A DNA stretch of 64,000 bases from Flagellimonas sp. MMG031. Lineage in GTDB: Bacteria > Bacteroidota > Bacteroidia > Flavobacteriales > Flavobacteriaceae. The notes under the pieces were generated by a model that saw only the letters and a list, made by a program, of their open reading frames with translations, was not told where the DNA came from and did no database searches. Every line of letters starts with the position of its first letter. Within the stretch, counting starts at the first letter, position 1. The position numbers and the translations under genes are program-made. This document shows, in pieces, positions 10,285 through 40,512 of the stretch. The stretch lies in assembly GCF_040112705.1 (NCBI RefSeq), contig NZ_CP157804.1, positions 3,652,001-3,716,000 of the forward strand, written 5' to 3'.

Positions 10285-12411
10285 TTAAGCGGTTACTCCT
10301 TTAGCTGATTTGATTACTTCCTCTGCAATGTTGGTAGGTGTTTCTGCATAGTGCGAAAACTCCATGGTTGATGTAGCTCTACCTGAAGACAATGTCCTCA
10401 AGGAGGTTACGTATCCAAACATTTCAGAAAGTGGTACTTCAGCTTTAACAACTTTAGCCCCTGCCCTGTCGGACATACTGTTTACCTGACCTCTTCTTCG
10501 GTTCAAGTCACCAACAATGTCACCCATGTTTTCTTCAGGGGTAAGCACTTCCAACTTCATGATAGGCTCCAAAATTACCGCTTTTGCTTTCTTGGCAGCT
10601 GCTTTGTAACCAAGCTTGGCTGCAAGCTCAAACGAAAGTTGGTCGGAATCCACCGCGTGGAAGGAACCATCTTTAAGGGTAACTTTCATGGCATCCATTT
10701 CGAAGCCGGCCAAAGGACCATTTTTCATAGCCTCCTTGAATCCTTTTTCTACAGATGGAACAAATTCCTTAGGAATGTTACCACCTTTGATTTCGTTCAC
10801 AAATTCAAGACCAGTCTTACCTTCTTCAGCAGGCTCCAAGGTGAATACGATGTCCGCAAATTTACCTCTACCACCTGTTTGTTTCTTGTAAGTCTCCCTG
10901 TGGTCAGCAGAAGCCGTAATAGCTTCTTTGTACTCTACCTGAGGTTGACCTTGGTTTACCTCTACCTTGAACTCACGTTTCAAACGATCACAGATAATAT
11001 CCAAGTGCAACTCACCCATACCGGAAATGATTGTCTGACCGGAAGCTTCATCTGTTTTTACTTGGAAAGTCGGATCTTCTTCGGCCAATTTAGCCAAAGC
11101 CATACCTAACTTATCAACATCAGCCTTTGTTTTTGGCTCAACCGCAATACCGATTACTGGATCGGGGAACTGCATACTTTCCAAAACAATTGGATGCTTT
11201 TCGTCCGATAGGGTATCCCCAGTCTTGATATCCTTAAATCCAACAGCAGCACCAATATCTCCAGCTTCGATAAAATCGATGGCATTTTGCTTATTGGAGT
11301 GCATTTGATAGATACGTGAAATACGCTCTTTGTTACCTGAACGGTTGTTCAAAATGTAGGAACCAGCGTCCAAACGACCTGAGTAAGCTCTAAAGAATGC
11401 CAAACGCCCTACGAAAGGATCAGTAGCAATCTTAAATGCCAAAGCGGAAAATGGTTCTTTAGGATCTGGTTTTCTTCTTTCTTCTTTTTCAGTATCAGGG
11501 TTCACACCGATGATATCATCCTTATCCAATGGAGAAGGAAGGTATCTACATACAGCGTCCAACAAGAACTGAACTCCTTTATTTTTAAAGGAAGAACCAC
11601 AAACCATAGGGATGATGGCCCTGTCCATTACAGCAGCACGTAGTGCGGCATGCACTTCTTCTTCAGTGATGGAATCTTCGTCCTCGAAGAATTTCTCCAT
11701 CAATTGCTCGTCATATTCCGCAACAGCCTCGATCAAAGCAGCTCTATACTCCCTAACCTCGTCCTGCATTTCTGCTGGAATATCCACAACATCGAATGTA
11801 GAACCGAAGTTATCCTCGTGCCAAACAACAGCTCTGTTCTTGGCCAAATCCACAATACCTTTAAAATCTGCTTCGTCACCAATTGGCAATACGATTGGCA
11901 CCGCATTGGAACCCAACATTTCACGAACCTGCTTACAAACAGCCAAGAAGTTGGCTCCTTGACGGTCCATTTTGTTCACGAAACCGATACGTGGTACTTT
12001 ATAATTATCGGCCAATCTCCAGTTGGTCTCGGATTGTGGCTCAACACCGTCAACAGCACTGAACAAGAACACCAATCCGTCCAACACACGAAGGGAACGG
12101 TTTACCTCAACCGTAAAGTCAACGTGCCCGGGAGTATCGATAATATTAAAGTGATAATCTTTTGTATCAGGCAAAGGCTGCGCATTCTCCATGGGGAACT
12201 TCCAAGTACAGGTGGTAGCAGCAGAAGTAATGGTAATACCACGCTCTTGCTCTTGCTCCATCCAGTCCATGGTCGCTGCACCATCGTGCACCTCCCCGAT
12301 CTTATGACTCACACCTGTATAGAAAAGAATACGCTCAGTAGTAGTAGTCTTTCCAGCATCAATGTGAGCTGCAATACCTATATTCCTTGTATATTTTAAA
12401 TCTCTTCCCAT
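10285..12411 (-). CDS. fusA: Elongation factor G
   Basis: EF-G is the translocation GTPase and also acts in ribosome recycling. The 708-residue product starts [23 protein letters not shown]. The G domain has AHIDAGKTT (G1), RGITI (G2), DTPGH (G3) and NKMD (G4). Domains II-V follow, with GGRGKFADI in domain IV and the terminal domain-V region [19 protein letters not shown]. Length is normal. It lies 12 bases upstream of rpsJ and 8 bases after rpsG in the merged str-S10 cluster. Confidence 0.98.
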
Positions 12412-21822: not shown

Positions 21823-24800
21823 ATGTTAATTATGTTGAGACGGATAATACCCATTCTTTTGAGTCTATTTATAATAAGTTGTGATAATCAAGAGAAAAAC
21901 AGTAGTGCGTCCCGCTCGAGTAATTCTGTAGAAAAGAATAGTCCAGTATTTAGAAAAGTTGAACCCAGAAATAGCCATATTACCTTTGCCAACACCATAA
22001 CCCACGACGTTGGCAGCCTTAACAACCTATTCGATTACGATTATTTTTACAACGGGGCAGGAGTTGGTATGGAGGACCTTAACAACGATGGCTTTTTGGA
22101 CGTCTTTTTCTGCGGAAATCAAGTAAACAATTCACTCTATTTTAACAAAGGTGACCTCACATTTGAGGATGTTTCGGACACGGCCCAAATTAACAATGGC
22201 AAAATATGGTCCAACGGTGTCACTTTTGCCGATATCAATAACGATGGTTGGATGGACATCTATATCTCACAAGGAGGACCCAACACACGGGACAAGCGAA
22301 AAAATTTGTTGTTTATTAACAATCAAGATGGAACCTTTGAGGAAAAAGCCGAGCAATACGGACTTGCCGACATGGGCATCAGTACCCAATCTGTCTTTTT
22401 TGATATGGATAAAGACGGTGACCTGGATTGCTTGGTAATGAATGAGAATGAACTCTATGGCATGGACCCCATTAGCTTCAACCAATATGTTAACTCCGAT
22501 GAGGAAACTGCCTATTTTAATTCCTCCCATTTGTACCGAAATGATGACGGTACTTTTACCGACATTACCAAATCTGCAGGACTTGCAAAACCCATATTTG
22601 GATTAGGCCTTGCCGTTGCCGACATTAACGAAGATGGCTGGATGGACATCTATATGGCAAGTGACTACTATCTACCAGATGCACTTTATATCAATAATCA
22701 CGACGGAACCTTCACCGATCAAATCAAGGAAGCTACCAATCAAATATCATTTTATGGTATGGGTATGGATATAGCCGATCTGGACAACGATGGACTTCAA
22801 GATATTTTTGTGCTAGACATGGCCGCTAACGATCATGTCCGGTCCAAAACATTAATGGCCTCCATGAATACCAAAAGATTTGAATTCTTGGTCAACAAGG
22901 CTGGCTATCATTATCAGTATATGTACAACTCCCTTCAAAAAAACATGGGAGACACTAAATTCAGTAATATTTCCCAACTTTCCGGAGTTGCCAATACAGA
23001 TTGGAGTTGGTCCGTATTAATGAATGATTTTGACCTCGACGGACACAAAGAAATACATGTGACCAATGGATATCGTAGGTATGCACTTGACAACGATTTA
23101 CAAAGAAAGGTTTTTGAAGCAAAACAACGATATGGACGAAATGTTCCGTTGGAAGTAAAGCAACAGCTTTATGAATCAATGCCTTCTGAAAAATTACCCA
23201 ACATACTTTACAAGCGGAAATCAAAACTGGTTTACGATAATGTAGCAACCGCTTGGGGGTTAGGAGATTTTTCATTTAGTAATGGTGCTGCTTCCGGGGA
23301 TTTGGACAATGATGGTGACCTAGATATCATTGTCAATAATATGGATGAAACCGCATTTGTTTATCAAAACCTATCCATAGAGAGTGGACTTGGGAATTAC
23401 TTAAAAGTAATCACCAATGGAAATTCCTCCGAAGAATTTGCCAAGGTAACGGTAAGCAGTGGCAGCGACTCACAAATGGTAGAAGTAAAACGAGTTCGCG
23501 GCTACCGTTCTGCCCAAGAACCTAAAGCATTTTTTGGACTGGCCAACAATACTTCTGTAGATACCGTAACCGTGTATTGGAAATCGGGAAAAATGCAACA
23601 AAAATTCAATGTCCCAGCAAACTCTACCATTACTTTTAATGAAAGGGACGCCACCCTTCCTGTTTCAACCAAACAAGAGAACGAGACCTACTTTATTGAA
23701 CTTGATACCGAAGCATTGGGGCTGAACTTTACCCATAATGAGAATGTATACGACGATTTTGAAACCGAAGTACTACTCCCTTACAAACAATCCAATCAGG
23801 GTCCCTTTATCACCAAAGGTGACATTAACGGAGATGGGCTGGAGGACATCCATGTAGGAGGCGCTGCAGGACAGCCTGGACAACTTTATATTCAGTCAAG
23901 CAAGGGATTTGTCAATATAAACTCACCCGCACTTCAAAAGGATGCACACCATGAGGATATGGAGTCCATCTTTTTTGATTTTGATGGTGACACCGATTTA
24001 GATCTTTTTGTGGTAAGTGGCGGAAATGAATTCGCCGAGTATTCTTCGTATCACACGGATAGAATCTACATAAACGACGGACAGGGGCAATTCTCTAAAC
24101 TGCAAAGCGAATCACTCTCTGCATTTCCTAAGAATGGAAAGTCCGTGAGCATTATCGACTTCGACAAAGATGGAGACAACGATATTCTAGTTGGAAACCG
24201 AGTGGTTCCCAAACAATATCCTATACCACAAGCTTCAGTGCTATTTGAAAATAGAGATGGTGAATTGGTGGATGTCACCCAAGAGGTGGCACCTGAATTC
24301 CAAGACTTTGGTATAGTCAATGATATTCAGACCACAGATGTAAATAACGATGGGTGGCCCGATTTCATAGCAGTGGGTGAATGGACCGGCATCGGTGTTT
24401 TCGTTAACCAACAAGGCACCTTTTCAAATATGGCAGAAGAAGATGCAATGCTCAGTGAAAAAGGATGGTGGTTCTCCGTAACAGAAACCGATGTCAACAA
24501 CGATAACCTTCCGGATTATGTAGTAGGAAATGTTGGCCTCAACATCAAGTTTAAAGCATCCAAAGAAAAACCGTTCAAGGTGTATGCTACAGATTTTGAT
24601 GAAAATGGAACCACCGACATAGTGCTGAGCAAAAAATATAAGGGAACCTACGTACCTGTTCGTGGAAGAGAATGTTCTTCCCAGCAAATGCCGTTTATCA
24701 AAGAAAAATTTGAAACATATTCCGAATTTGCCAATGCCAGCCTGGTGGATATTTATGGTGAAAAATTAAGCTCTTCGTATGAAAGCAGTGCAACCGAGCT

Positions 24801-25179
24801 CCAATCCATAGTGTTAATCAACAAAGGCAATCTTGTTTTTGAAAAACAACGGCTCCCCATTTCAGGTCAAACCATTCCTATTTTGAATTGTGCAGTGGCA
24901 GACCTAAATAACGATGGTTACGAGGATATCGTCGCCGTAGGAAACATTTACGAAACAGAGGTGGAAACGCCACGATTGGACGCCCTATCGGGTGTAATCT
25001 TACTTTCAAACGGTACCGATGGCTACATCAGCGTACCTCATCAGAATTCAGGGCTTTTTATGGAAGGAAACGTTAAGAGCATCGAGTTGATCACCAATAC
25101 AAACGATGAGACAATTCTCGTAAACACCACCAACAATGGTCCACTTGCCGTACATAAAACCTCTTGGTACGATAAATAA
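21823..25179 (+). CDS. Large VCBS-repeat / ASPIC-UnbV lipoprotein (CRTAC1-like)
   Basis: The 1118-residue product has a lipoprotein signal (LFIISC, Cys about 20); an ATG three codons further in is an alternative start. It is built of FG-GAP/VCBS calcium-binding repeats of the form D-x-N-x-D-G-x-x-D: about seven between residues 80 and 510 (for example DLNNDGFLDVFF, DINNDGWMDIYI). An ASPIC/UnbV domain follows at about 525-605 (AKVTVSSGS...VEVKRVRGYRSAQEP). About seven more repeats lie between 655 and 1080. This predicts a surface-attached beta-propeller pair. Such proteins often accompany SusCD loci in Bacteroidota, which suggests a role in surface binding, though there is no direct evidence. 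Confidence 0.88.
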   Translation: MLIMLRRIIPILLSLFIISCDNQEKNSSASRSSNSVEKNSPVFRKVEPRNSHITFANTITHDVGSLNNLFDYDYFYNGAGVGMEDLNNDGFLDVFFCGNQVNNSLYFNKGDLTFEDVSDTAQINNGKIWSNGVTFADINNDGWMDIYISQGGPNTRDKRKNLLFINNQDGTFEEKAEQYGLADMGISTQSVFFDMDKDGDLDCLVMNENELYGMDPISFNQYVNSDEETAYFNSSHLYRNDDGTFTDITKSAGLAKPIFGLGLAVADINEDGWMDIYMASDYYLPDALYINNHDGTFTDQIKEATNQISFYGMGMDIADLDNDGLQDIFVLDMAANDHVRSKTLMASMNTKRFEFLVNKAGYHYQYMYNSLQKNMGDTKFSNISQLSGVANTDWSWSVLMNDFDLDGHKEIHVTNGYRRYALDNDLQRKVFEAKQRYGRNVPLEVKQQLYESMPSEKLPNILYKRKSKLVYDNVATAWGLGDFSFSNGAASGDLDNDGDLDIIVNNMDETAFVYQNLSIESGLGNYLKVITNGNSSEEFAKVTVSSGSDSQMVEVKRVRGYRSAQEPKAFFGLANNTSVDTVTVYWKSGKMQQKFNVPANSTITFNERDATLPVSTKQENETYFIELDTEALGLNFTHNENVYDDFETEVLLPYKQSNQGPFITKGDINGDGLEDIHVGGAAGQPGQLYIQSSKGFVNINSPALQKDAHHEDMESIFFDFDGDTDLDLFVVSGGNEFAEYSSYHTDRIYINDGQGQFSKLQSESLSAFPKNGKSVSIIDFDKDGDNDILVGNRVVPKQYPIPQASVLFENRDGELVDVTQEVAPEFQDFGIVNDIQTTDVNNDGWPDFIAVGEWTGIGVFVNQQGTFSNMAEEDAMLSEKGWWFSVTETDVNNDNLPDYVVGNVGLNIKFKASKEKPFKVYATDFDENGTTDIVLSKKYKGTYVPVRGRECSSQQMPFIKEKFETYSEFANASLVDIYGEKLSSSYESSATELQSIVLINKGNLVFEKQRLPISGQTIPILNCAVADLNNDGYEDIVAVGNIYETEVETPRLDALSGVILLSNGTDGYISVPHQNSGLFMEGNVKSIELITNTNDETILVNTTNNGPLAVHKTSWYDK

Positions 25180-25329
25180 AAAGTATCGCAATTAAATCGA
25201 CAAATAATAATCTAGGTAATACTGCACGAGTATAAAGAGTCCTCATGAAGGATTCAACAACAACCAACGTCTCGAAGAAGGTTACAAAAGTCCATCATTC
25301 TCCCTAATATTTTAATTTCGAATGTGCGA

Positions 25330-26058
25330 TTAATCCTCATCCGAAGCCTTGTAATGGTATTTGATTTCAATGTTTTGTTCGGTCTCTTCGGGTTTGGTTT
25401 CAATAAAATTACCGTGCTCGTCAAAATGTTGTAGAAAAGGGTCGTCGGCTTCATTATAATCATCGTGTTCCCAAGCATATTTGCGCACTTCAGGAACCCT
25501 GACCTTGGTCACCAAGGCAAACACGAGCCCAGTCACAAATCCCGACAAATGTCCTTCCCACGAAATGCCATCTTTTACCGGAAAAATATACCAGATCATA
25601 CTCCCGTAAATAAAGACAACTACTAAGGACAATGCCACGAGCCTATAATTTTTGGCCAAAATGCCCTTAAAAAAAATAAAACTGGCCAAAAGATAGATAA
25701 CCCCGCTGGCACCGATATGGTAAGATGGACGGGCAATGAACCAAGTGAGCAAACCTGAGAGCAAGGTACCGAATAAAAGCACCCTTAGGGCCGCGCTCTG
25801 ATAAAAATAAAACAGAAAAGCGGTCAATACCGCCAACGGAATGGTATTGTTATACAGATGTTCGATAGAGCTGTGGATAAACGGACTAAAAAATACCCCT
25901 CTAAGACCAGACAGTCTCCTGGGATAAATCCCATAATCGTTCAGGTTGATGCCCATTTGGACCTCGGCCCAGAACACGGCCCAAATAGAGAGAATGGCCA
26001 CCAGTGGCGCCAGCACTACCGCATTGGAAAATTTAAATGAATCTGAATCCATAACCAC
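25330..26058 (-). CDS. Rhomboid-family intramembrane serine protease
   Basis: Rhomboids cut substrate proteins within the membrane using a Ser-His dyad. The 242-residue product has six predicted membrane segments. The catalytic serine is in GASG (Ser 118) in TM4 and the histidine in EGHLSG (His 170) in TM6. The HLYNN segment near residues 67-71 is the oxyanion-side region of TM2. The soluble C-terminal tail from about residue 190 is acidic. A start two codons later is possible. It is divergent from rarA and alone on its strand. Confidence 0.9.
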   Translation of the reverse strand: MVMDSDSFKFSNAVVLAPLVAILSIWAVFWAEVQMGINLNDYGIYPRRLSGLRGVFFSPFIHSSIEHLYNNTIPLAVLTAFLFYFYQSAALRVLLFGTLLSGLLTWFIARPSYHIGASGVIYLLASFIFFKGILAKNYRLVALSLVVVFIYGSMIWYIFPVKDGISWEGHLSGFVTGLVFALVTKVRVPEVRKYAWEHDDYNEADDPFLQHFDEHGNFIETKPEETEQNIEIKYHYKASDED

Positions 26059-26160
26059 CCTAAATCAAACATCCGGCCATATCCTTACACTGTTACAATT
26101 TGTCAGGTACCGCCGTAAAATCCTTTATAAAACAAGCACATGATACCATCAAATTTATAC

Positions 26161-26168
26161 TATTTTTG
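26161..26168 (+). promoter_or_regulatory. Candidate -7 element of the rarA promoter
   Basis: TATTTTTG matches TAnnTTTG exactly but ends only four bases before the rarA ATG at 26173, so transcription from it would give a nearly leaderless message. No clear TTG is seen at the right distance upstream. Confidence 0.35.
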
Positions 26169-26172
26169 AGGT

Positions 26173-27450
26173 ATGAACGAACCTTTGGCAGAACGCATAC
26201 GTCCCAAAACCTTGGAGGACTACATCAGTCAACAACATCTAGTGGGCAAGGAAGGTGCGCTTACCAACCAAATCAAGAACGGTATTATCCCCTCACTTAT
26301 TTTTTGGGGGCCACCGGGAACGGGCAAAACCACCTTGGCCAACATTATTGCCTCCGAGAGCCAACGTCCATTTTACACTTTGAGCGCTATTAGCAGCGGA
26401 GTAAAGGATGTACGCGAGGTCATCGAGAAAGCAAAGCAGAGTGGCGGCCTGTTCACCTCAAAAAATCCCATTCTTTTTATTGATGAAATCCATCGGTTCA
26501 GCAAATCCCAACAAGATTCTTTGCTGGGCGCCGTGGAAAAGGGATGGGTAACCCTTATTGGTGCCACTACGGAGAACCCAAGTTTTGAAGTCATCCCGGC
26601 ACTTTTGTCGAGATGTCAGGTGTACACCCTGAATCCGTTTGGGAAAGAGGATCTGGTGGCCCTTTTGGAGCGGGCTATCCAAACAGATGTCCAACTTTCC
26701 AAAAAACAGATTGAACTCAAGGAAACAGAAGCCCTATTGCGACTTTCGGGCGGAGATGGCCGAAAATTGCTCAATATTTTCGAGCTTTTGATCAATTCAG
26801 AAAGTGGAGCCAAGATCAGTATCACCAATGATCTGGTGTTGAGCAAAGTTCAAAAGAACACGGTGCTCTACGATAAAACCGGCGAACAGCATTATGATAT
26901 CATCTCAGCCTTTATCAAAAGTATCCGGGGCAGTGACCCCAATGCGGCGGTATATTGGTTGGCCAGAATGATAGAGGGTGGCGAGGATGTGAAATTCATT
27001 GCCAGAAGGATGATCATTTTGGCTTCGGAAGACATTGGGAACGCCAACCCTACGGCCTTGGTATTGGCCAACACCACGTTCCAGTCCGTTACCACCATCG
27101 GTTTTCCCGAAGCGCGGATTATTCTGAGCCAGTGTGCGACCTATTTGGCAAGTTCCCCAAAGAGCAATGCCAGTTACATGGCCATCAACGAGGCACAACA
27201 GACCGTTCGACAGACCGGCGATCTTTCAGTGCCCATGGCGATCCGAAATGCCCCGACCAAATTAATGAAGGACTTGGGTTATGGCAAAGGCTACGATTAT
27301 GCGCACAACCATGAAAATAATTTTGTGGACTTCGAGTTTCTGCCCGATGAGATTTCGGGTACTACGTTTTACAGGCCAGGTAATAATCCAAGGGAAAATG
27401 CCATGCGGGATTTCCTAAAAAAGAGGTGGAAGGACAAGTACGATCTTTAA
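26173..27450 (+). CDS. rarA: Replication-associated recombination protein A (RarA/MgsA)
   Basis: RarA is an AAA+ ATPase acting at stalled replication forks, related to clamp loaders. The 425-residue product starts MNEPLAERIRPKTLEDY. It has Walker A GPPGTGKTT (about residue 43), Walker B LFIDEIHRF, sensor 1 LIGATTENPSFE and the arginine-finger region ALLSRC. The C-terminal tetramerisation domain follows with RGSDPNAAVYWLARMIEGGED and YGKGYDYAHN. Length matches the family. Its stop overlaps the convergent neighbour by four bases. Confidence 0.96.
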   Translation: MNEPLAERIRPKTLEDYISQQHLVGKEGALTNQIKNGIIPSLIFWGPPGTGKTTLANIIASESQRPFYTLSAISSGVKDVREVIEKAKQSGGLFTSKNPILFIDEIHRFSKSQQDSLLGAVEKGWVTLIGATTENPSFEVIPALLSRCQVYTLNPFGKEDLVALLERAIQTDVQLSKKQIELKETEALLRLSGGDGRKLLNIFELLINSESGAKISITNDLVLSKVQKNTVLYDKTGEQHYDIISAFIKSIRGSDPNAAVYWLARMIEGGEDVKFIARRMIILASEDIGNANPTALVLANTTFQSVTTIGFPEARIILSQCATYLASSPKSNASYMAINEAQQTVRQTGDLSVPMAIRNAPTKLMKDLGYGKGYDYAHNHENNFVDFEFLPDEISGTTFYRPGNNPRENAMRDFLKKRWKDKYDL

Positions 27451-33560: not shown

Positions 33561-34433
33561 TTATTGGAAAGTGGACATCGCCTCATAAAACTCGACCTCA
33601 TCCACCCCCATCTGTTGGCAAATCCATTTGGCACCTGCCATGCTTCTAAGATTATCAGATCCAGAAATTTCCAGGGGCAACTCACCATCGGGCGTTTCCA
33701 GAAAGATTTCACCATCTTCCTCTTGATAGGCGGGAGTGGCGTAGGGAAATTTACGAATGGGATTCTCCGAAGCTTCGACCAGTTCCTTTACCATCACATC
33801 CTCATCGTTGTAAGTAATACTCCCCCCTTTTACCACACTATCCACAAAATGGGCAAATTGCGCTGAATCAACCGCTTCTGAGGTAGCGATATCGCTCAAT
33901 AAGGCTATGTTCGGAATGTATTTTTGGAATTGGGGCGTGGCATCCAAGGAAGACGATGCCTGATTATTTGCCTCGATCAGGATAAAATCATTCTCTTTGG
34001 TAAGATGTATACCGCTGGAAGTTTCGGTCACATAATCCGCCGCCACATCATTATATTCCAATGCATGCAGGATCATTTGGGTGACGGTGCCATGATGTTG
34101 AGAACCGGCAATCACCACCCGCGTTTTGTATTTGGCCTGTTCGTAAAGAAAATCAGGAAAAGAGAATAAGGGCAAGCCCAGTTCTTGCGCCTTAACCATT
34201 TCTGGGTTGTCCACCTGTACCTTGGAACCTATCACTACGGCATCCAAGTTGGTATGGATACTATCCGAAAACCAACCCGCACCTTTGGACAATAATCCCT
34301 GTTCCTCCATCATGGTCTTTAGGGATTCGTCAAAAACCTCGTCGCTGCCCGTTACCACTGTTCCATTTTTATGCAGGGCCACGGCCAAATTAAACATATT
34401 GACCTCCCCCATTCCAATAAAATGTACCTGCAT
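33561..34433 (-). CDS. Shortened Mpl/Mur-ligase-like protein with degenerate P-loop
   Basis: Mpl ligases attach a recycled murein tripeptide to UDP-MurNAc using ATP. The chosen ATG at 34431-34433 gives 290 residues, beginning MQVHFIGMGEVNMFNLAVAL. Mpl has about 450. The N-terminal Rossmann domain (1-100) and start of the central domain align well (GWFSDSIHTNLDAVVIGS, NPEMVKAQELGLPLFSFPDFLYEQ). The P-loop normally reading GSHGKTT is GSQHHGT (110-116), so the ATP-binding Lys is His 114. Much of the central domain and the normal ligase domain are missing. The frame is open throughout, so it looks like a retained pseudo-enzyme rather than debris; it may be a binding or regulatory protein in murein recycling. 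Confidence 0.75.
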   Translation of the reverse strand: MQVHFIGMGEVNMFNLAVALHKNGTVVTGSDEVFDESLKTMMEEQGLLSKGAGWFSDSIHTNLDAVVIGSKVQVDNPEMVKAQELGLPLFSFPDFLYEQAKYKTRVVIAGSQHHGTVTQMILHALEYNDVAADYVTETSSGIHLTKENDFILIEANNQASSSLDATPQFQKYIPNIALLSDIATSEAVDSAQFAHFVDSVVKGGSITYNDEDVMVKELVEASENPIRKFPYATPAYQEEDGEIFLETPDGELPLEISGSDNLRSMAGAKWICQQMGVDEVEFYEAMSTFQ

Positions 34434-34531
34434 CTTTTGTGTTTTGAACCGCAAAAATAACCATTGCCGATGCCATTGCAAATAGGGAGGCTGCCTATTA
34501 ATCTTTATATTGGTCCTAAAATCAGAAATCA

Positions 34532-34843
34532 ATGAACCTATCAGAAATTGAACCAAGGGAAATCATGCCCGGATACCACGGAAAATTAGTGCATGGCGAA
34601 CGGATGAGCTGGGTGTTTTGGGATGTGGACCAAAATGCGGAGGTGCCCGAACATCAGCACGACCACGAACAGATCATGCACGTAGTGGAGGGCACTTTTG
34701 AGTTTACCTTGAATGGAAAAACAGGCAGGTACCACCCGGGTGATGTGGTCATTATCCCATCCAATGCACCCCATAGCGGAAAGGCGTTGACACCCTGTAA
34801 ACTAATGGATATTTTTAGTCCCGTAAGAGAACAGTACCGATGA
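34532..34843 (+). CDS. Cupin-domain protein
   Basis: The 103-residue product is one cupin barrel: motif 1 VPEHQHDHEQIMHVVEGTFE (about 36-55, with the His/Glu metal ligands) and motif 2 YHPGDVVIIPSNAPHSG (about 67-83). It probably binds a divalent metal; the reaction is unknown. Its stop overlaps the ATG of the SDR gene (ATGA at 34840), so the two are translationally coupled and likely act on related substrates. Confidence 0.85.
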   Translation: MNLSEIEPREIMPGYHGKLVHGERMSWVFWDVDQNAEVPEHQHDHEQIMHVVEGTFEFTLNGKTGRYHPGDVVIIPSNAPHSGKALTPCKLMDIFSPVREQYR

Positions 34844-35625
34844 ATATTTCACTCCAAGGAAAAAAGGCCCTTGTTGGCGGAAGCAGCAAAGGGATTGGTG
34901 CGGCCATAGCAAAACAACTGGCTGCCAGTGGCGCGAGTGTGACCCTGATGGCGCGTAGCGAAGGGCGAATGCAGGAGCTCATTGAGGAAATGGACAGCTC
35001 TCAAGGACAACAACACCAATTCCTTTCGGTGGATTTTACCGATTTTGAAGCCTACAAAACCAAAATAGCAAGGTATTTCGAGACCAATACCGTGGATATT
35101 TTGGTCAACAATACGCAGGGGCCCGAAGGCGGCGGTGCGCTCGAAAAGAAAGTGGATGATTATCAAAATGCCTTCGATTTATTGTTCAAGTCGGTGGTGT
35201 ACACTACGGAGCTGGCCCTAAAACACATGCAGGAGCAACACTGGGGGCGTATTATCAACATAGCATCCATATCGGTAAAGGAACCGCTGAACTACTTGGC
35301 GCTTTCCAATACCATTAGAGCTGCCGTGGTCACCTGGGCCAAGAGTTTGGCCTACGATGTGGCCAAAGACGGCATTACGGTAAACAGCACCCTAACAGGT
35401 TATTTTGACACGGACCGCATTGCCCAACTAAACTCCAAAAAAGCGGAAAAAATGGGTGTTTCCCCGGATGAAGTCCGCTCCAACATGGAAGAGCAAGTAC
35501 CCGTAAAACGGATTGGCGACCCAAAGGAATATGGCTATTTGGTGACTTTCTTGGCATCGGAACAGGCCGCCTTTATTACGGGAACCAATATCCCGATTGA
35601 TGGCGGACTACTAAAATCGTTGTAA
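34840..35625 (+). CDS. Atypical short-chain dehydrogenase/reductase
   Basis: The 261-residue Rossmann protein has the cofactor motif GGSSKGIGAAIA (about 13-24), NNTQGPEGGG in place of the usual NNAG, and a Ser in IINIASISV. The position of the catalytic YxxxK reads LALSN, so Tyr and Lys are replaced. The C-terminal FITGTNIPIDGGLLKSL is typical SDR. Similar BKR-like SDR groups lacking the full tetrad are known in sequence databases, so this is a subfamily trait rather than decay. A degraded copy of its 3' end lies at 37881-38080, beyond the toxin-antitoxin island. Confidence 0.88.
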   Translation: MNISLQGKKALVGGSSKGIGAAIAKQLAASGASVTLMARSEGRMQELIEEMDSSQGQQHQFLSVDFTDFEAYKTKIARYFETNTVDILVNNTQGPEGGGALEKKVDDYQNAFDLLFKSVVYTTELALKHMQEQHWGRIINIASISVKEPLNYLALSNTIRAAVVTWAKSLAYDVAKDGITVNSTLTGYFDTDRIAQLNSKKAEKMGVSPDEVRSNMEEQVPVKRIGDPKEYGYLVTFLASEQAAFITGTNIPIDGGLLKSL

Positions 35626-35676
35626 AGTAAGGACCCTTAGGGCCTTTCATGGGATACATTGTTAGATGTGGTATTT

Positions 35677-35976
35677 CTATTCAGTTATTCTGTTTTTCAA
35701 ATCCATTTGTCCGTGTAAAATTCTCGTAATCTCAATCGGTTGGTTAATTCGTTTTCGATAAAAAATGATATGTCGGCTTGTTTTAAGCCCGAATAAGTCT
35801 TTGGTTATATCATCGTAGTTTTTTCCCAACCCAGGATTGTTTGCAATGTCTTGGCAACTGTCCAATAGTAGGTTATAATATCTATCTGCTTGTTGCTCAG
35901 ACCACTTTTCAGTTGTGTATTCCCAAATTCGGGTTAAATCCTCAACTGCTTTATGGGTCAGTTCATATTTAGCCAT
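35677..35976 (-). CDS. parE: ParE/RelE-family toxin
   Basis: The 99-residue product matches the ParE group of type II toxins: EDLTRIWEYTTEKWSEQQADRYY, then GLKTSRHIIFYRK near the C terminus, the usual basic strand. ParE toxins poison DNA gyrase in characterised cases; the target here is inferred. Its start overlaps the parD stop region by eight bases. It is the last gene of the island; ATCTAAC, of the form RYYYAAC, follows about ten bases after the stop. Confidence 0.9.
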   Translation of the reverse strand: MAKYELTHKAVEDLTRIWEYTTEKWSEQQADRYYNLLLDSCQDIANNPGLGKNYDDITKDLFGLKTSRHIIFYRKRINQPIEITRILHGQMDLKNRITE

Positions 35977-36220
35977 TCTTTTTACGCCTGGCCTTTAATT
36001 CCTGAAGATGTTTTTCTGGGTCAAAATCATGAGCAATTCCGCTGTCAATTCCTTCCTGTATCGCATTTCTCAAAGCAAGAGCTTTACTTTCTTCATGCTC
36101 TAATAGTCGAAGTCCGGCCCTGATTACTTCACTTACGTTTTTATACCTTCCGGCTGAAACTTGGTTACTTACAAATTGGTCAAAATAATTTCCAAGGGAT
36201 ATGGATGTGTTTTTACTCAT
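35969..36220 (-). CDS. parD: ParD-family antitoxin
   Basis: The 83-residue product has a ribbon-helix-helix N terminus (TSISLGNYFDQFVSNQVSAGRYKNVSEVIRAGLRLLE) and a charged C-terminal tail that would wrap the toxin (DPEKHLQELKARRKKNG). Standard antitoxin-first order, overlapping parE by eight bases. A perfect 8+8 palindrome 20 bases upstream of its ATG is a likely operator for autorepression. Confidence 0.92.
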   Translation of the reverse strand: MSKNTSISLGNYFDQFVSNQVSAGRYKNVSEVIRAGLRLLEHEESKALALRNAIQEGIDSGIAHDFDPEKHLQELKARRKKNG

Positions 36221-36240
36221 AACTCACATTTTTACCCGAA

Positions 36241-36259
36241 ATTACCAAAAATTGGTAAT
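36241..36259. promoter_or_regulatory. Palindrome upstream of parDE, probable autoregulatory operator
   Basis: ATTACCAA AAA TTGGTAAT is a perfect 8-bp inverted repeat around three bases, 20 bases before the parD start. ParD-type ribbon-helix-helix proteins bind such repeats to repress their operon. Direct observation for the repeat; regulation is inferred. Confidence 0.6.
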
Positions 36260-36281
36260 TTTTCCAAGCTATACCCAATCG

Positions 36282-36349
36282 CAATCAGCAAAAGGGGGGG
36301 CGCACTGCGTGCGTGGTTTTGCGTTCCTGAAGGGATATTGCCATCAACG
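36282..36349. repeat. Copy A of a 68-bp palindromic repeat
   Basis: This copy nearly matches 37107-37173. Both read AATCAGCAAAAGGGG or GATCAGCAAAAGGGG at one end, GTGCGTGGTTTTGCG in the middle and GGGATATTGCCATCAACG at the other end. GCAAAA and TTTTGC pair around a GC-rich loop. Each copy lies at the end of a long palindromic spacer in the island. Confidence 0.8.
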
Positions 36350-36475
36350 TTTGTGGCTATGGTTTCGTTGCGGATAAATCCGCGAGGATTTTCCGCCGTA
36401 ACCCAAAGTTAATAAATACGCAAGGAATTTCAGTAATGAAATTCCGCCGCAATGAGCTATACACGGTGTTAGCAT
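36350..36475. repeat. Imperfect palindromic spacer A between parD and the AT-rich lipoprotein gene
   Basis: Contains CGGAT/ATCCG and the 9-bp stem GGAATTTCA / TGAAATTCC, and ends GGTGTTAGC seven bases beyond the stop of the gene at 36482. Read from that gene, it begins GCTAACACC and runs into repeat copy A. Its size, nested stems and GCTAAC/GTTAGC edges resemble a cassette-type recombination site, but the outer core does not match the integron consensus well. Confidence 0.5.
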
Positions 36476-36481
36476 AAGTAT

Positions 36482-36931
36482 TTAATTTTCGTTTTCGATT
36501 AAGTCTAATATTTTTTTCGATATAAAAAACCGATGAAATTTTTGCCCCATTCCATTTTCTTTATAATTAGATATTGTTTTTCCAAAAAATCCAATTTCTG
36601 TTTTGGTATTGTTAATTTTTGGATATATAGTTAATTGAAGAGTGTCTTTTTTATTGTAAAATTCTAAGTGATAAAGAGCTCTTTTACCGCCATATTTATA
36701 TTTTTCATTTTTAAAATAGTTAGTTGAGTCAGTAAAAAAAGAAGTAAAATTATTTAGCTTCTTTCTTTCGTCAATTATCCTTTTAAATTGATAGTCAAAC
36801 ATTTTTTTTATTTCAATTTTTTCGACTGAATTAAAATCAAATTTTGGAAATTCCTGTTTTGAGTTATCTTCAAATAAACAAGAATTTAATGAAAGTCCTA
36901 ATAACAATAAAAAACACAGTCTTAATTTCAT
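36482..36931 (-). CDS. Small AT-rich lipoprotein of unknown function
   Basis: The 149-residue product starts MKLRLCFLLLLGLSLNSC, a lipoprotein signal with Cys 18. The mature part is rich in Lys, Phe, Tyr and Asn (YHLEFYNKKDTLQLTIYPKI) and has no recognised motif. The gene is clearly more AT-rich than the neighbouring core genes. GTTAGC lies a few bases before its ATG and GCTAAC about seven bases after its stop, so it sits alone between two palindromic spacers like a cassette gene. Confidence 0.75.
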   Translation of the reverse strand: MKLRLCFLLLLGLSLNSCLFEDNSKQEFPKFDFNSVEKIEIKKMFDYQFKRIIDERKKLNNFTSFFTDSTNYFKNEKYKYGGKRALYHLEFYNKKDTLQLTIYPKINNTKTEIGFFGKTISNYKENGMGQKFHRFFISKKILDLIENEN

Positions 36932-36942
36932 ATTTATGCTAA

Positions 36943-37035
36943 CCGGCCTTGTTTATGGCGAGTGAGGCGTGCCTCACGGGGAGCCATCGTTACGCCTCAT
37001 TCGGTATAAGTGCAGTTGATGGCTTTGGCTTTTGC
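36943..37035. repeat. Imperfect palindromic spacer C upstream of the AT-rich lipoprotein gene
   Basis: Begins GCTAACCGGCC next to the lipoprotein start and contains the stem GTGAGGC / GCCTCAC with GT between, then ACGCCTCA which can pair with the same arm, and ends near GTTGATGGCTTTGGC. No ORF of note lies in it or in the next 60 bases. Confidence 0.45.
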
Positions 37036-37092
37036 CTGTAGCCCTAGTTAAAGATAGAAAAAACTTTCATGGGTCATGAGGTGGAATGTACA

Positions 37093-37177
37093 AGGCCCGT
37101 TGATGGCGATCAGCAAAAGGGGAGCGCAGGTCGTGCGTGGTTTTGCGTTCCCGAAGGGATATTGCCATCAACGGCCT
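37093..37177. repeat. Copy B of the palindromic repeat, with complete outer arms
   Basis: The outer arms AGGCCCGTTGATGGC (37093-37107) and GCCATCAACGGCCT (37164-37177) pair with one bulge; inner arms GCAAAA (37113-37118) and TTTTGC (37141-37146) nest within, with a small TCCC/GGGA stem. This copy keeps both arms, whereas copy A at 36282 lacks most of one arm. It can form one long nested hairpin. Confidence 0.75.
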
Positions 37178-37303
37178 CGTATAACCGTCAGTTACGGGTT
37201 TATATGCGTTAATTTTCGGTTTGGCAGAGACGTTAGCAATTCCGAGTGGATTCGGACGTAGTCGAATCATCCGTAATTGCGGTTACACATTGTTGTTCGC
37301 TGG
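37178..37303. repeat. Imperfect palindromic spacer B downstream of the 138-residue protein gene
   Basis: Contains AACCGT/ACGGGTT, ATTCG/CGAAT and CCG/CGG stems and an internal CGTTAGC. It ends CATTGTTGTTCGCTGGC four bases from the stop of the gene at 37307. Read from that gene it begins GCGAACAACAATG, similar to the edges of the other island spacers. Confidence 0.5.
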
Positions 37304-37306
37304 CTT

Positions 37307-37723
37307 TTATTCATTTAATAATTCAATTTCAGTTATTGTCGGTTTTTCATAAGCTAAAACAGTCAAACAGCCATTTGTTGTCGCTATGAAAAATTCATTC
37401 AATTGGTCAACTGCTCTACTAACGTCCAATATTCCGCTTTGGGTAATTTCTCCAGATTTCCAACCGCCTTTAATTATTCTAAACAGGTGAAATCCGTTTT
37501 TAAAATCAGGTAAATCCCAATAACCTAAAAAATCACCTTCGTCCAAATATCGAAATCCGTTAAATCCGCTGAATTCATATTCAATTCCGATTTGTTTTTC
37601 CGCATTTTCCCAAGTCGAAATCGTTATTTTCAATCCGAAATTGTCTGTCCACTGGAAATCAATTATATCACTTTCTTTTTTCGAGAAATATTCTTTTCCA
37701 ATTTTGTCAATTGTCATTTCCAT
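37307..37723 (-). CDS. Small soluble protein of unknown function
   Basis: I chose the ATG at 37721-37723 (138 residues, MEMTIDKIGKEYFSKK); a start two codons later is equally good, and a longer start at 37765 would run through the sequence GTTGTACGCAAGCTGA that looks like a spacer edge. The product is acidic and rich in Phe/Trp (FQWTDNFGLKITISTWENAEK, GDFLGYWDLPDFKNGFHLF). No family was recognised; small proteins of this type are sometimes immunity factors, but nothing shows that here. It is the first gene of the minus-strand island. Confidence 0.65.
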   Translation of the reverse strand: MEMTIDKIGKEYFSKKESDIIDFQWTDNFGLKITISTWENAEKQIGIEYEFSGFNGFRYLDEGDFLGYWDLPDFKNGFHLFRIIKGGWKSGEITQSGILDVSRAVDQLNEFFIATTNGCLTVLAYEKPTITEIELLNE

Positions 37724-37880
37724 ATCGGTTTTCAGCTTGCGTACAACTATTGAATACAAAGACAATTCCTTATATCCCTACTTATTTGTACTAAACATAC
37801 TACTTTTTTGCTTACAAAAAATTCATTCGCATTAGTAGGTCTATTCCCGATTTTGGGAAAATATGGGAGGTTAAACGCAC

Positions 37881-38080
37881 CTACGTCACCACCAAACTCC
37901 CAAAAAGCGGAAATAAAGGTGTCGCCCCAAAAGATGTCCGCAGTAATATCGAAGAACGAGTACCCCCAAAACCGATTGGCAATTCAAAGGATTTTGGCTA
38001 TTTAGCCACCTTCTTGGCATTGGAACAGGTAGCTATTCTAACAGCAACCCCATATCCCGATTGATGGCGGACTTCTAAAA
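37881..38080 (+). pseudogene. Decayed 3' remnant of the SDR gene
   Basis: The plus strand encodes VRSNIEERVPPKPIGNSKDF, matching VRSNMEEQVPVKRIGDPKEY of the intact SDR, followed by GYLATFLALEQVAILTA matching GYLVTFLASEQAAFITG. One extra base near 38050 breaks the frame, after which IPIDGGLLK resumes. There is no 5' part. The remnant covers about the last 70 codons and lies on the far side of the island from the intact gene (34840-35625), in the same orientation. It marks an old duplication or insertion boundary. Confidence 0.85.
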
Positions 38081-38183
38081 CACTCTAAACCCACTCATTT
38101 TCAATAAAATAACTTGACCAAGAAAATCATAGCTATTTGTTTTTTAGGTACTTTTATATGGTAACCAATAAATCATTAACCCT

Positions 38184-38561
38184 ATGAACTCTAAAGTGTT
38201 TTTGGGAATCCGTATCCTCTTGGGGCTTTTTGTCCTCATATTCGGATTGAACAAATTTCTCAATTTTATTCCCGCGGGAGGTGAAATGTCCGAACCGGCG
38301 ATGAACTATTTTGGGGGGCTATCCTCCACCTACACCATCCAATTGGTGGCCATTGTGGAAATTTTAGCGGGACTTGCGCTCATTTTCAACAAGTATGGCG
38401 CCTTAATGGCCTTGGTGCTGATGAGTGTATCCGTAAATGCCGTGCTTTTTCATGCCACTCTGGATATCGGCAACATTGGACCCGCTTTGGGACTGTTGAT
38501 TCTCAATATCTTGGTATTGGTAGGATATAAGGATAGGTACAAAGATCTGTTGAGGGCATAA
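38184..38561 (+). CDS. DoxX-family membrane protein
   Basis: The 125-residue product has four hydrophobic segments and the DoxX pattern (GLFVLIFGLNKFLNFIP at the first helix; AIVEILAGLALIFNKYGALMAL in the middle). DoxX-like proteins are small inner-membrane proteins linked to redox processes in some cases; the function here is unknown. It ends at a long inverted repeat shared with the convergent LytTR regulator. Confidence 0.85.
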   Translation: MNSKVFLGIRILLGLFVLIFGLNKFLNFIPAGGEMSEPAMNYFGGLSSTYTIQLVAIVEILAGLALIFNKYGALMALVLMSVSVNAVLFHATLDIGNIGPALGLLILNILVLVGYKDRYKDLLRA

Positions 38562-38569
38562 ACGCTTTG

Positions 38570-38727
38570 AAAGAGGCTGTTTAAAAAGTTGATTTTTGTC
38601 AACCTGAACTTGCCTGCCTGCCGGCAAAGGCAGGTTTCAGGTTCTCATAATGATTTGTTTACCAGAACGATGAGATTCTGAAATAAATTCAGAATGACAT
38701 ATTTCACTACTTTTTAGACAGCCTCTT
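38570..38727. repeat. 158-bp inverted-repeat element between convergent genes
   Basis: The outer 20-base arms AAAGAGGCTGTTTAAAAAGT (38570-38589) and ACTTTTTAGACAGCCTCTTT (38709-38728) pair at 19 of 20 positions. Inside are GCCTGCCTGCCGGCAAAGGCAGG and a TTCTGAA/TTCAGAA stem. It ends in a T run on the plus side and serves both the DoxX gene and the response regulator as a terminator. The size and closed ends also fit a miniature inverted-repeat element. Confidence 0.7.
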
Positions 38728-38731
38728 TTTT

Positions 38732-39457
38732 TTACAAACTCATTTTATCCTTAAAAATGTAGGATTGCCTGCGGGAAACCTCTACCTCTTCCCCATTTTT
38801 CATGGTGAGTTTCAACTTGCCGTTGAACCATGGCACCACATTTTCGATATAGTCTGTGTTGACAATCTGTTGCCGATTCGCCCTAAAAAAAGCATCCTCC
38901 GGTAGTTTTTCCTCCACCTGGTTGAGCGATTTGTAGAGCATGGGCTTTTTGTCCTCAAAAAACACCCGCGTATAGTTCCCAACGATTTCGAACATCGAAA
39001 TATCGCCAATCTTCACCAACCAGCACGACTCTCCATCTTTGATGAAAATCTGACTGTTTGCAGCGAGCCTTTTAGCCGTGGTCGATTCCGTGGTTTTGGA
39101 AGACAATTTTTCACGCACCTTTTCCAAGGCCATGTCAAAACGTTTGTTGCTCACGGGTTTCAGCAAGTAATCCAACGCATTGTACTCAAAGGATTTAATG
39201 GCATACTCATCGTAAGCGGTAGTAAATATGGTAATGGGCACCTCATCCAATAATTCCAAAAGGTCAAAGCCATTTTTTTCGGGCATATTGATATCCAGAA
39301 AAAGGAGGTCAGGAGATTCTTTCTCTATGAGCTCCACCCCGTCGTCCACATTCGCCGCCTCCCCAACGAGCTCCAAATCATCATGTAGTTTGATGAGTTC
39401 CTTTAGCTCGTTCCGGGCCAACCTGGAGTCTTCAACTATGACTGCCCTAATGTTCAT
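38732..39457 (-). CDS. LytTR-family response regulator
   Basis: The 241-residue product has a receiver domain (1-120) with the acidic pair in VEDS, the phosphorylated Asp in LLFLDINMPEKNG and the conserved Lys in LLKPVSNKRF. The C-terminal LytTR DNA-binding domain (about 140-240) has VGNYTRVFFEDKKPMLYKSL and FFRANRQQIVNTDYIE. Its ATG overlaps the stop of the sensor kinase by four bases. It probably activates genes carrying two direct repeats spaced about two helical turns. Confidence 0.94.
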   Translation of the reverse strand: MNIRAVIVEDSRLARNELKELIKLHDDLELVGEAANVDDGVELIEKESPDLLFLDINMPEKNGFDLLELLDEVPITIFTTAYDEYAIKSFEYNALDYLLKPVSNKRFDMALEKVREKLSSKTTESTTAKRLAANSQIFIKDGESCWLVKIGDISMFEIVGNYTRVFFEDKKPMLYKSLNQVEEKLPEDAFFRANRQQIVNTDYIENVVPWFNGKLKLTMKNGEEVEVSRRQSYIFKDKMSL

Positions 39458-40512
39458 TCCATGGGGATTTTGATTTCTGCCACAACCTCATCGGAGATTT
39501 CTTTCAAGGTAAAGGATGCCTGATCGGCATACAATAATTTTAATCGTTGTTCAATATTCTTCAAGCCCAATTGGGTGGAATCTTGGGTCATCTGAAGTTT
39601 TCCCGTGTTCCGCACTTCAATATGTAGCTGTTCATCCGTTCTAAAAATAGACAAAACAATCCGTCCGCCATGCTTTAGATTGGAAATACCGTGTTTGGCG
39701 GCGTTTTCGATCAACAATTGAATGATCATTGGAGGAATCCGTAGGTCCAGGGTGTTCTCTTCAATCTGTTTTACAAACTCCAAACGGTCCTCAAACTGGA
39801 TTTTGGACAGGTCGATATAATTGTCCACTACTTCCACCTCCTCCCGAACAGGGATGTCGTTGACGTTGTTCTTCGTCAACGAATACCGAAGGATTTCGGA
39901 GAGTTTGGTCAGCATTTCCCGAGAGCGGTCCACATCCTCGAGCATCAAGCCACGGATATTGTTGAGGCTATTGAACATAAAATGGGGGTTGATTTGTCCT
40001 TTTAGCGTATTTAGTTGCGCCTGTTTCAGGGTGGTGTTCAGCTCCAAACGCTCTATTCGGTTCTGATTCAGTTTTAAGAGCAATTTGATGACCAAGTAAG
40101 TTATGGTCCAAGCTCCTACCAAAAACAAAGAGTTCAACACTTGGATCAAAATCTTATCATATCCTTCGAACATCTTCAGTTCGGTTTCTGTGAGTTCCGG
40201 ACCAAACTTAAAGTAGAGGTATCCTGACAAGAAATTCAATAGCCCAAATAATAAAGCGGCCAACAAAATGGATACTATGATTTTGAGGACTTCCTTCCCT
40301 CCAAAAGAATCAAAATGGACATTTTTTTTGAGATACCATCGTAGTATAGAGGTGCTGAATACTCCGATAAAAATACCCACAACGACCGAAAAAACGGTCA
40401 GTTCCCAACTAAGGTTGTGAGGAACCAAAATTGAAATGGCATTAATAAACCCCCATCCCAATAATTGTAGGGTCCAAAATGCAATATTGCGTTTGCGCGA
40501 ACTTAATTCCAT
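39454..40512 (-). CDS. LytS-type sensor histidine kinase
   Basis: The 352-residue product has four predicted N-terminal membrane helices (about 10-155), then a coiled linker and the His_kinase domain with the phospho-acceptor box INPHFMFNSLNNIRG (His about 196). The ATPase domain follows with RIPPMIIQLLIENAAKHGI and QLGLKNIEQRLKLLY. There is no extracellular ligand domain, so it probably senses within the membrane. It overlaps its response regulator by four bases. Confidence 0.94.
   Translation of the reverse strand: MELSSRKRNIAFWTLQLLGWGFINAISILVPHNLSWELTVFSVVVGIFIGVFSTSILRWYLKKNVHFDSFGGKEVLKIIVSILLAALLFGLLNFLSGYLYFKFGPELTETELKMFEGYDKILIQVLNSLFLVGAWTITYLVIKLLLKLNQNRIERLELNTTLKQAQLNTLKGQINPHFMFNSLNNIRGLMLEDVDRSREMLTKLSEILRYSLTKNNVNDIPVREEVEVVDNYIDLSKIQFEDRLEFVKQIEENTLDLRIPPMIIQLLIENAAKHGISNLKHGGRIVLSIFRTDEQLHIEVRNTGKLQMTQDSTQLGLKNIEQRLKLLYADQASFTLKEISDEVVAEIKIPME

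Follow-up and report, generated by a model that had tools for sequence, protein, structure and literature searches.

We find that a minus-strand gene island in Flagellimonas sp. MMG031, whose genome is a single contig of 3.76 Mb, is very probably a short cassette array without a recombinase, belonging to an integron-like system of the Bacteroidota, and we read that system as a new integron variant. The island lies between a plus-strand SDR gene (34840-35625) and a plus-strand DoxX gene (38184-38561) of the window, that is, the whole stretch of 64,000 nucleotides analysed here. Comparison with related genomes shows that most putative cassettes of this system hold one gene each, with a common orientation, that a cassette-specific inverted repeat of the form GTT-N7...N7'-AAC bounds each of them ahead of a folded attC-like site, and that the predicted arrays start from a short putative head site, with a tyrosine recombinase gene of the same strand shortly upstream.

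Read on the minus strand from 37747 to 35661, the island consists of a degenerate head site, a gene for a 138-residue protein, a gene-less unit, a lipoprotein-like gene and parDE, with GTT at 37747, 37172, 36943 and 36348 (Table 1). The pattern of a unit is GTT and seven nucleotides at its start and the reverse complement of those seven with AAC at its end, after which the attC-like site follows; the lipoprotein unit, for example, has the borders GTTAGCATAA (from 36943) and TTATGCTAAC. When the rule is applied exactly and with its A/C asymmetry, the 64-kb window yields this unit and one unrelated plus-strand pair (24471-26577). The original prediction had read the island as a cassette array of three units on one strand, and its ParDE, lipoprotein-like and 138-residue genes are confirmed by the open reading frames and, for ParDE, by Pfam; the three gene-bearing units stand, but a fourth, gene-less unit with its own hairpin had been overlooked. 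The AAC edges described shortly after the gene stops are real, with gaps of 13, 11 and 12 nt from stop to AAC and with ATCTAAC (35667-35661) coming 9 nt after the parE stop. The proposed match of ATCTAAC to the integron core RYYYAAC is not typical of the sites, which have AAC and GTT but mostly depart from the rest of the core (RYYYAAC/GTTRRRY), and the toxin-antitoxin pair put forward as a cassette does lie in the array but has no matching start.

Table 1. Features of the island and its flanks (window positions).
Feature	Position	Strand	Remarks
parE	35677-35976	-	Pfam ParE
parD	35969-36220	-	Pfam ParD
lipoprotein-like ORF	36482-36931	-	no Pfam family
138-aa ORF	37307-37723	-	no Pfam family
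head (attI-like) stretch GGATATAAGGAATTGTCTTTGTATTCAATA	37748..37777	-	directly before first GTT; degenerate
cassette 1: 138-aa gene and attC-like site 37170-37294	37173..37747	-	end rule 5/7; site E 9.0e-16; strain breakpoint 37745
cassette 2: gene-less unit GTTGATGGCA...GCCATCAAC, different 161-nt hairpin 37101-36941	36944..37172	-	end rule 6/7
cassette 3: lipoprotein-like gene and attC-like site 36346-36470	36349..36943	-	end rule 7/7; site E 3.1e-16
last unit: parD, parE, ATCTAAC edge	35661..36348	-	end rule 1/7, no matching start
gene-less unit fragment inside last unit	36278-36348	-	
truncated last site (AACAATGTATCC...), ends at SDR stop codon	35626..35663	-	read from sequence; no fold
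remnant of SDR 3' end, head side of island	37894..38080	+	76-94% to end of intact SDR

The two 125-nt attC-like sites lie in the spacers of the island, and their genome-wide E-values (Table 1) come from a covariance model, R1, whose 60 training sites include these two and otherwise derive from genomes of one family, taken to be the Flavobacteriaceae. The 161-nt hairpin that ends the gene-less unit is unlike both. As single-stranded DNA, 36343-36480 folds with z-scores of -4.0 and -3.9 on the two strands, 36936-37112 with -3.1 and -2.9, and the gene-less body at 37097-37174 with -5.4; folding is weak at 37166-37306 (-1.5 and -1.3), and neither the truncated last site (z 0.0 over 35600-35690) nor 36260-36352 (z 0.3) folds. 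Searches of the window gave no match to Rfam and none to an IntI profile. The intact end of the SDR gene (35500-35616) and a diverged second copy of it (37963-38080) flank the island at 76-94% identity, as though the array had left a duplicated or replaced SDR gene as the mark of its arrival.

A second genome labelled as the same species (G316) matches the window at 94% over 34401-36352 and at 90% over 37745-39500. Between these flanks it carries a 583-aa amidohydrolase gene, the gene-less unit (at 93%), an IS110-type transposase and a 149-aa gene, and it has the last unit too, 94% identical as far as 36352. The breakpoints coincide with GTT, where ...TTCAATA|GTTGTACGC in the window genome corresponds to ...TCCAATA|GTTACCTACC in the other, and two of the G316 units follow the end rule exactly. 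Judged from their sequences, the two genomes differ by whole predicted cassettes with breakpoints at GTT, an indirect sign that cassettes may move. In three other members of the genus that were read, the SDR gene continues to DoxX without an island, and 28 genus loci at this place gave just two weak model matches (E 0.0093 and 0.089), near the ends of the loci. In G316 the transposase (L169 5547-6491) is flanked by the end of the 149-aa cassette and by the next full site, and a 44-nt attC-like site consisting of arms with almost no loop follows the amidohydrolase cassette (L169 3140-3183).

Elsewhere in the window genome, 174 nt of the second spacer, that of the gene-less unit, recur at 97% (C1:1323376-1323549), with a tRNA-Leu gene some 0.2 kb away, upstream of a 706-aa gene with GmrSD_N and SLFN_AlbA_2 domains (L012 4219-6339). 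After that gene the model finds a further, weaker site (C1:1321081-1321204, E 5.7e-5). The best PADLOC match of the gene is the candidate family PDC-M55C (1.1e-63); it is a candidate defence gene with the appearance of a lone cassette. At E 0.1 the window genome holds six model sites, and a unit that obeys the exact rule (C1:1700476-1700015; L260) abuts one of them, C1:1699836-1700017, at its end. The genome yielded no integron integrase with the IntI profile and, at E 1e-70 with the best six candidates scored, no match to a profile of the recombinases that head related arrays (A1, below), and the array is therefore an orphan. Several expectations of the original prediction are in this way borne out: an attC-like fold exists and shows covariation, a spacer recurs in the same genome beside a different gene, the gene order gives way to other cassettes in the same species and the island is missing from the three genus members read, and the window holds no integrase. 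Together with the end rule and the attC-like sites, the same-species swap supports the cassette-array reading.

The site family reaches far beyond the genus. The 375-nt spacer of the gene-less unit as a DNA query, with at most two candidates scored per genome, matched 163 of 299 family genomes, and R1, with eleven candidates scored per genome, matched 251 of the 299 (E 1e-6), a count that is a census and not an independent test. An iterated profile found 423 full-length sites in 15 chromosome stretches. For 324 of the 407 adjacent site pairs at least six of the seven bases at the unit start, after GTT, are complementary to those at the unit end, before AAC, against a mean of 13.6 and a maximum of 23 pairs in 200 shuffles, although sites inside one array are not independent. 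The rule holds for 312 of 354 pairs less than 1.5 kb apart and for 12 of 53 longer ones; 41 of the 83 failing pairs belong to the 53 at least 1.5 kb apart, among which sites may have been missed. Base 8 after GTT is A in 99%, and 30 of the 407 starts read GTTRRRY. This end rule is the pattern that circular cassettes integrating at GTT would be expected to leave. Among 322 rule-positive cassettes the longest open reading frame is on the strand of the site in 301, 23 have no open reading frame of 60 aa, and the median gap from stop to AAC is 12 nt; single genes in one orientation, as in cassettes, are thus the general case. The longest run comprises 87 sites over 70 kb, with three more past 6 kb of other genes (G068), and a run of 48 sites has no recombinase within the 80 kb read (G255).

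The two arms of the sites covary, with mutual information of up to 1.03 in 297 unique arm pairs compared with at most 0.08 in 20 shuffles. In the model alignment 93.6% of 840 cells are paired, and the covariation score of 0.352 (0.082 in shuffles, 0 of 500 as high) falls to at most 0.100 when the structure is slid. Column pair 13-120 is unpaired in 39 of 60 rows, mostly as an A.C mismatch, and the 3' arm holds one extra base, seen as a register shift and, by eye, in alignment A2. The elements of an attC fold, namely paired arms, an unpaired spacer, an extrahelical base and a variable loop, are accordingly present by covariation. The terms used here for that fold are in part general knowledge and in part those of PMC4792948.

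With its threshold relaxed, the IntI profile revealed a recombinase other than XerC and XerD in 12 of the 14 repeat-bearing genomes; the other two (G071 and G209) have none besides XerC and XerD. In all 13 stretches that contain such a recombinase it shares the strand of the sites and precedes them, and sites occur solely downstream of it, as judged within the 1.6-14 kb fetched upstream. Profile A1, built from 13 of these head-type proteins, scores its own members, which are its training rows, at 473-568 bits and Xer proteins at no more than 177; with six candidates scored per genome it matches 192 of the 299 family genomes (E 1e-70). Both R1 sites and the recombinase occur in 180 genomes, sites alone in 71, the recombinase alone in 12 and neither in 36 (p 1.7e-9, uncorrected for kinship); with the sites of the DNA query the association is weaker (118, 45, 74 and 62 in the same order; p 0.0016). 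The IntI profile gives ten head-type proteins 183-213 bits against a cut-off of 265 and scores of 404-509 for four proteins taken as IntI. The distance from the first arginine to HxxR is 88-90 in the head type (94 in L181) versus 131 in IntI1, 131-132 in two other IntI proteins and 112 in L250, and IntI4 has 64 residues where head-type recombinases have 21. Judged by its sequence, then, the head recombinase is not an IntI: it lacks the roughly 42 residues that contain the IntI-specific domain, scores below the cut-off and falls on a separate branch.

The closest solved relatives of the head recombinase by sequence are XerA-like, and most head recombinases carry an added N-terminal domain. That this domain is essential is disfavoured, because a 305-aa recombinase without it heads an array in G034. 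Two more 305-aa copies without the domain, of identical translation, occur in G159 (C1:2189790-2190797 and 3112748-3113749) apart from the head recombinase at 10740-11867, and possibly represent a separate mobile element. Since six of ten head-type proteins pass the cut-off of NCBIfam NF040815 ("site-specific tyrosine recombinase/integron integrase"), which the XerD of the window genome also passes, some head recombinases may already carry that name.

These recombinases bear on the improbable reading of the island as an ordinary CALIN, cassettes left behind when a classical IntI integron lost its integrase. The layout, the attC-like fold and the lack of an integrase nearby would all suit it, but no IntI scored above the cut-off in any of the 299 family genomes (at most seven candidates scored each), in a scan whose built-in controls gave no signal and whose cut-off lies below the four proteins taken as IntI; moreover, GTTRRRY starts are scarce and the arrays are headed by a different recombinase. 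Slightly less probable still is that homologous recombination between near-identical repeats shuffles the cassettes with no dedicated recombinase: some repeats are indeed 90-95% identical across genera, and some neighbouring segments in G101 appear duplicated, but cassette-specific ends pair with each other, repeats of distant sequence follow the same rule, and a recombinase stands at the array heads. There is little to be said for action of the host XerC and XerD on the sites, since both, though encoded in the window genome, are absent from the array heads, where a separate recombinase tracks the sites. Immobile intergenic palindromes between unrelated genes, such as terminators or REP-like repeats, would also fold and lie about 12 nt after stop codons, but they can practically be dismissed, for the complementarity joins the ends of cassettes and seldom spans a repeat (18 of 421 sites), and the same-species swap occurs at the borders.

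The integron-like reading further implies a head site. In 16 distinct heads GTT follows the recombinase stop by 26-125 nt; excluded are three (G175, G255b and G087) with GTT 1.3-4.8 kb past the stop, as well as heads without a matching GTT or without a repeat in the stretch (G068, G101 and several of L109-L138). Eleven of the 16 have a palindrome that ends 3-7 nt before GTT and is equalled by at most 7 of 100 shuffles, and five have no such palindrome. The palindrome of the window head is degenerate, being equalled by 39 of 100 shuffles, while G316 has a better one at the same place (4 of 100), 4 nt before GTT and hence spaced as in recombinase-bearing heads. By eye, no recombinase remnant is seen behind the window head site.

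In the mechanism that we propose, the folded attC of a circular cassette would be cut by the recombinase at its GTT/AAC border and joined to the head site, or alternatively the recombinase would excise cassettes between two attCs; the site's asymmetric bulge and its unequal spacers would set the orientation. As no such recombinase was found in the window genome, its cassettes would have been brought in by a recombinase that acted in trans or was later lost, or the array would have arrived as a block, and it is probably not self-moving now.

The close named relatives of the recombinase include Winogradskyella, Psychroflexus and Seonamhaeicola, from which the family is taken to be Flavobacteriaceae. 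Among the best 80 of 585 recombinase relatives in named genomes, 21 loci have strict-rule pairs on the recombinase strand (32 pairs, versus 3 on the other strand); in one of them, L207, the recombinase comes after the pair, and another, L236, is from an alphaproteobacterium. They include Arundinibacter roseus, Aquiflexum, Carboxylicivirga, Alkalitalea and a Bacteroidales MAG, and in loci of at least 8 kb there are no strict pairs in 148,000 nt upstream of the recombinase versus 18 in 140,988 nt downstream. Named relatives from the Cytophagales and Bacteroidales show the same layout; the Arundinibacter sites differ in sequence and, by eye, share it. The repeat profile matches just 5 of the best 80 loci, so that it is the end rule and not the site sequence that extends across orders. 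A 395-kb Persicobacter plasmid (CP012862.1; L254) encodes a 44% relative of the recombinase with one attC-like model match 5 kb downstream, a possible plasmid-borne form, and its 13-kb stretch contains no strict-rule pair.

A broader proposal, which we hold with more doubt than conviction, is that the Bacteroidota have a second kind of integron, in which folded attC sites are read by a XerA-like recombinase that lacks the IntI-specific domain and probably relies on a HARP/XPB-like N-terminal domain to recognise DNA shape; its arrays would reach superintegron size throughout the phylum, and it would be either the I2-free form called for by the question of how attC arose (below) or an independent invention. 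The 251 site-bearing and 192 recombinase-bearing genomes of the 299 would amount to a large pool of exchangeable genes that has been overlooked. The accessible part of PMC9024848 calls Bacteroidetes integrons rare, those of PMC8618304 and PMC2426708 count Bacteroidota or the Bacteroidetes/Chlorobi group as carrying integrons, and those of PMC8352920 and PMC8876359 mention neither. In the open literature we found no account of Flavobacteriaceae integrons or of a non-IntI class in Bacteroidota; preprints and most subscription journals lay outside this search, and an earlier description is possible.

Archaeal XerA and XerCD resolve chromosome dimers, and XerCD-using phages such as CTXphi integrate. 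It is to XerA-like proteins that the head recombinase is closest among solved structures by sequence; XerA and XerCD systems are not known to have cassette arrays. In its consulted sections PMC4792948 poses as an open, "chicken-egg" question how attC was selected before the I2 domain existed, and names the CTXphi reaction as the sole one with some similarities; the present system is relevant to the origin of attC before the IntI-specific domain, and, combining attC-like sites and an extrahelical base in nature without an I2, it makes that question testable. CALINs share with the window array the state of sites without an integrase, but they are called with classical attC models and at least two attC, whereas the two window sites were called with R1. 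Treponema integrons resemble the arrays described here in that the integrase is transcribed towards the cassettes, a typical intI diverging from them according to the accessible part of PMC3607928, but Treponema has IntI and these arrays a non-IntI recombinase. Sedentary chromosomal integrons and superintegrons are alike in having a head recombinase, a head site (putative in the present arrays) and one-way cassettes with folded sites, as well as gene-less cassettes, large arrays and strain-level cassette differences. They differ in that the recombinase here lies outside the IntI clade, lacks the IntI-specific domain, which PMC9668308 in its accessible part takes as defining, and mostly has an added N-terminal domain, and in that the core here is GTT with seven cassette-specific nucleotides and rarely GTTRRRY.
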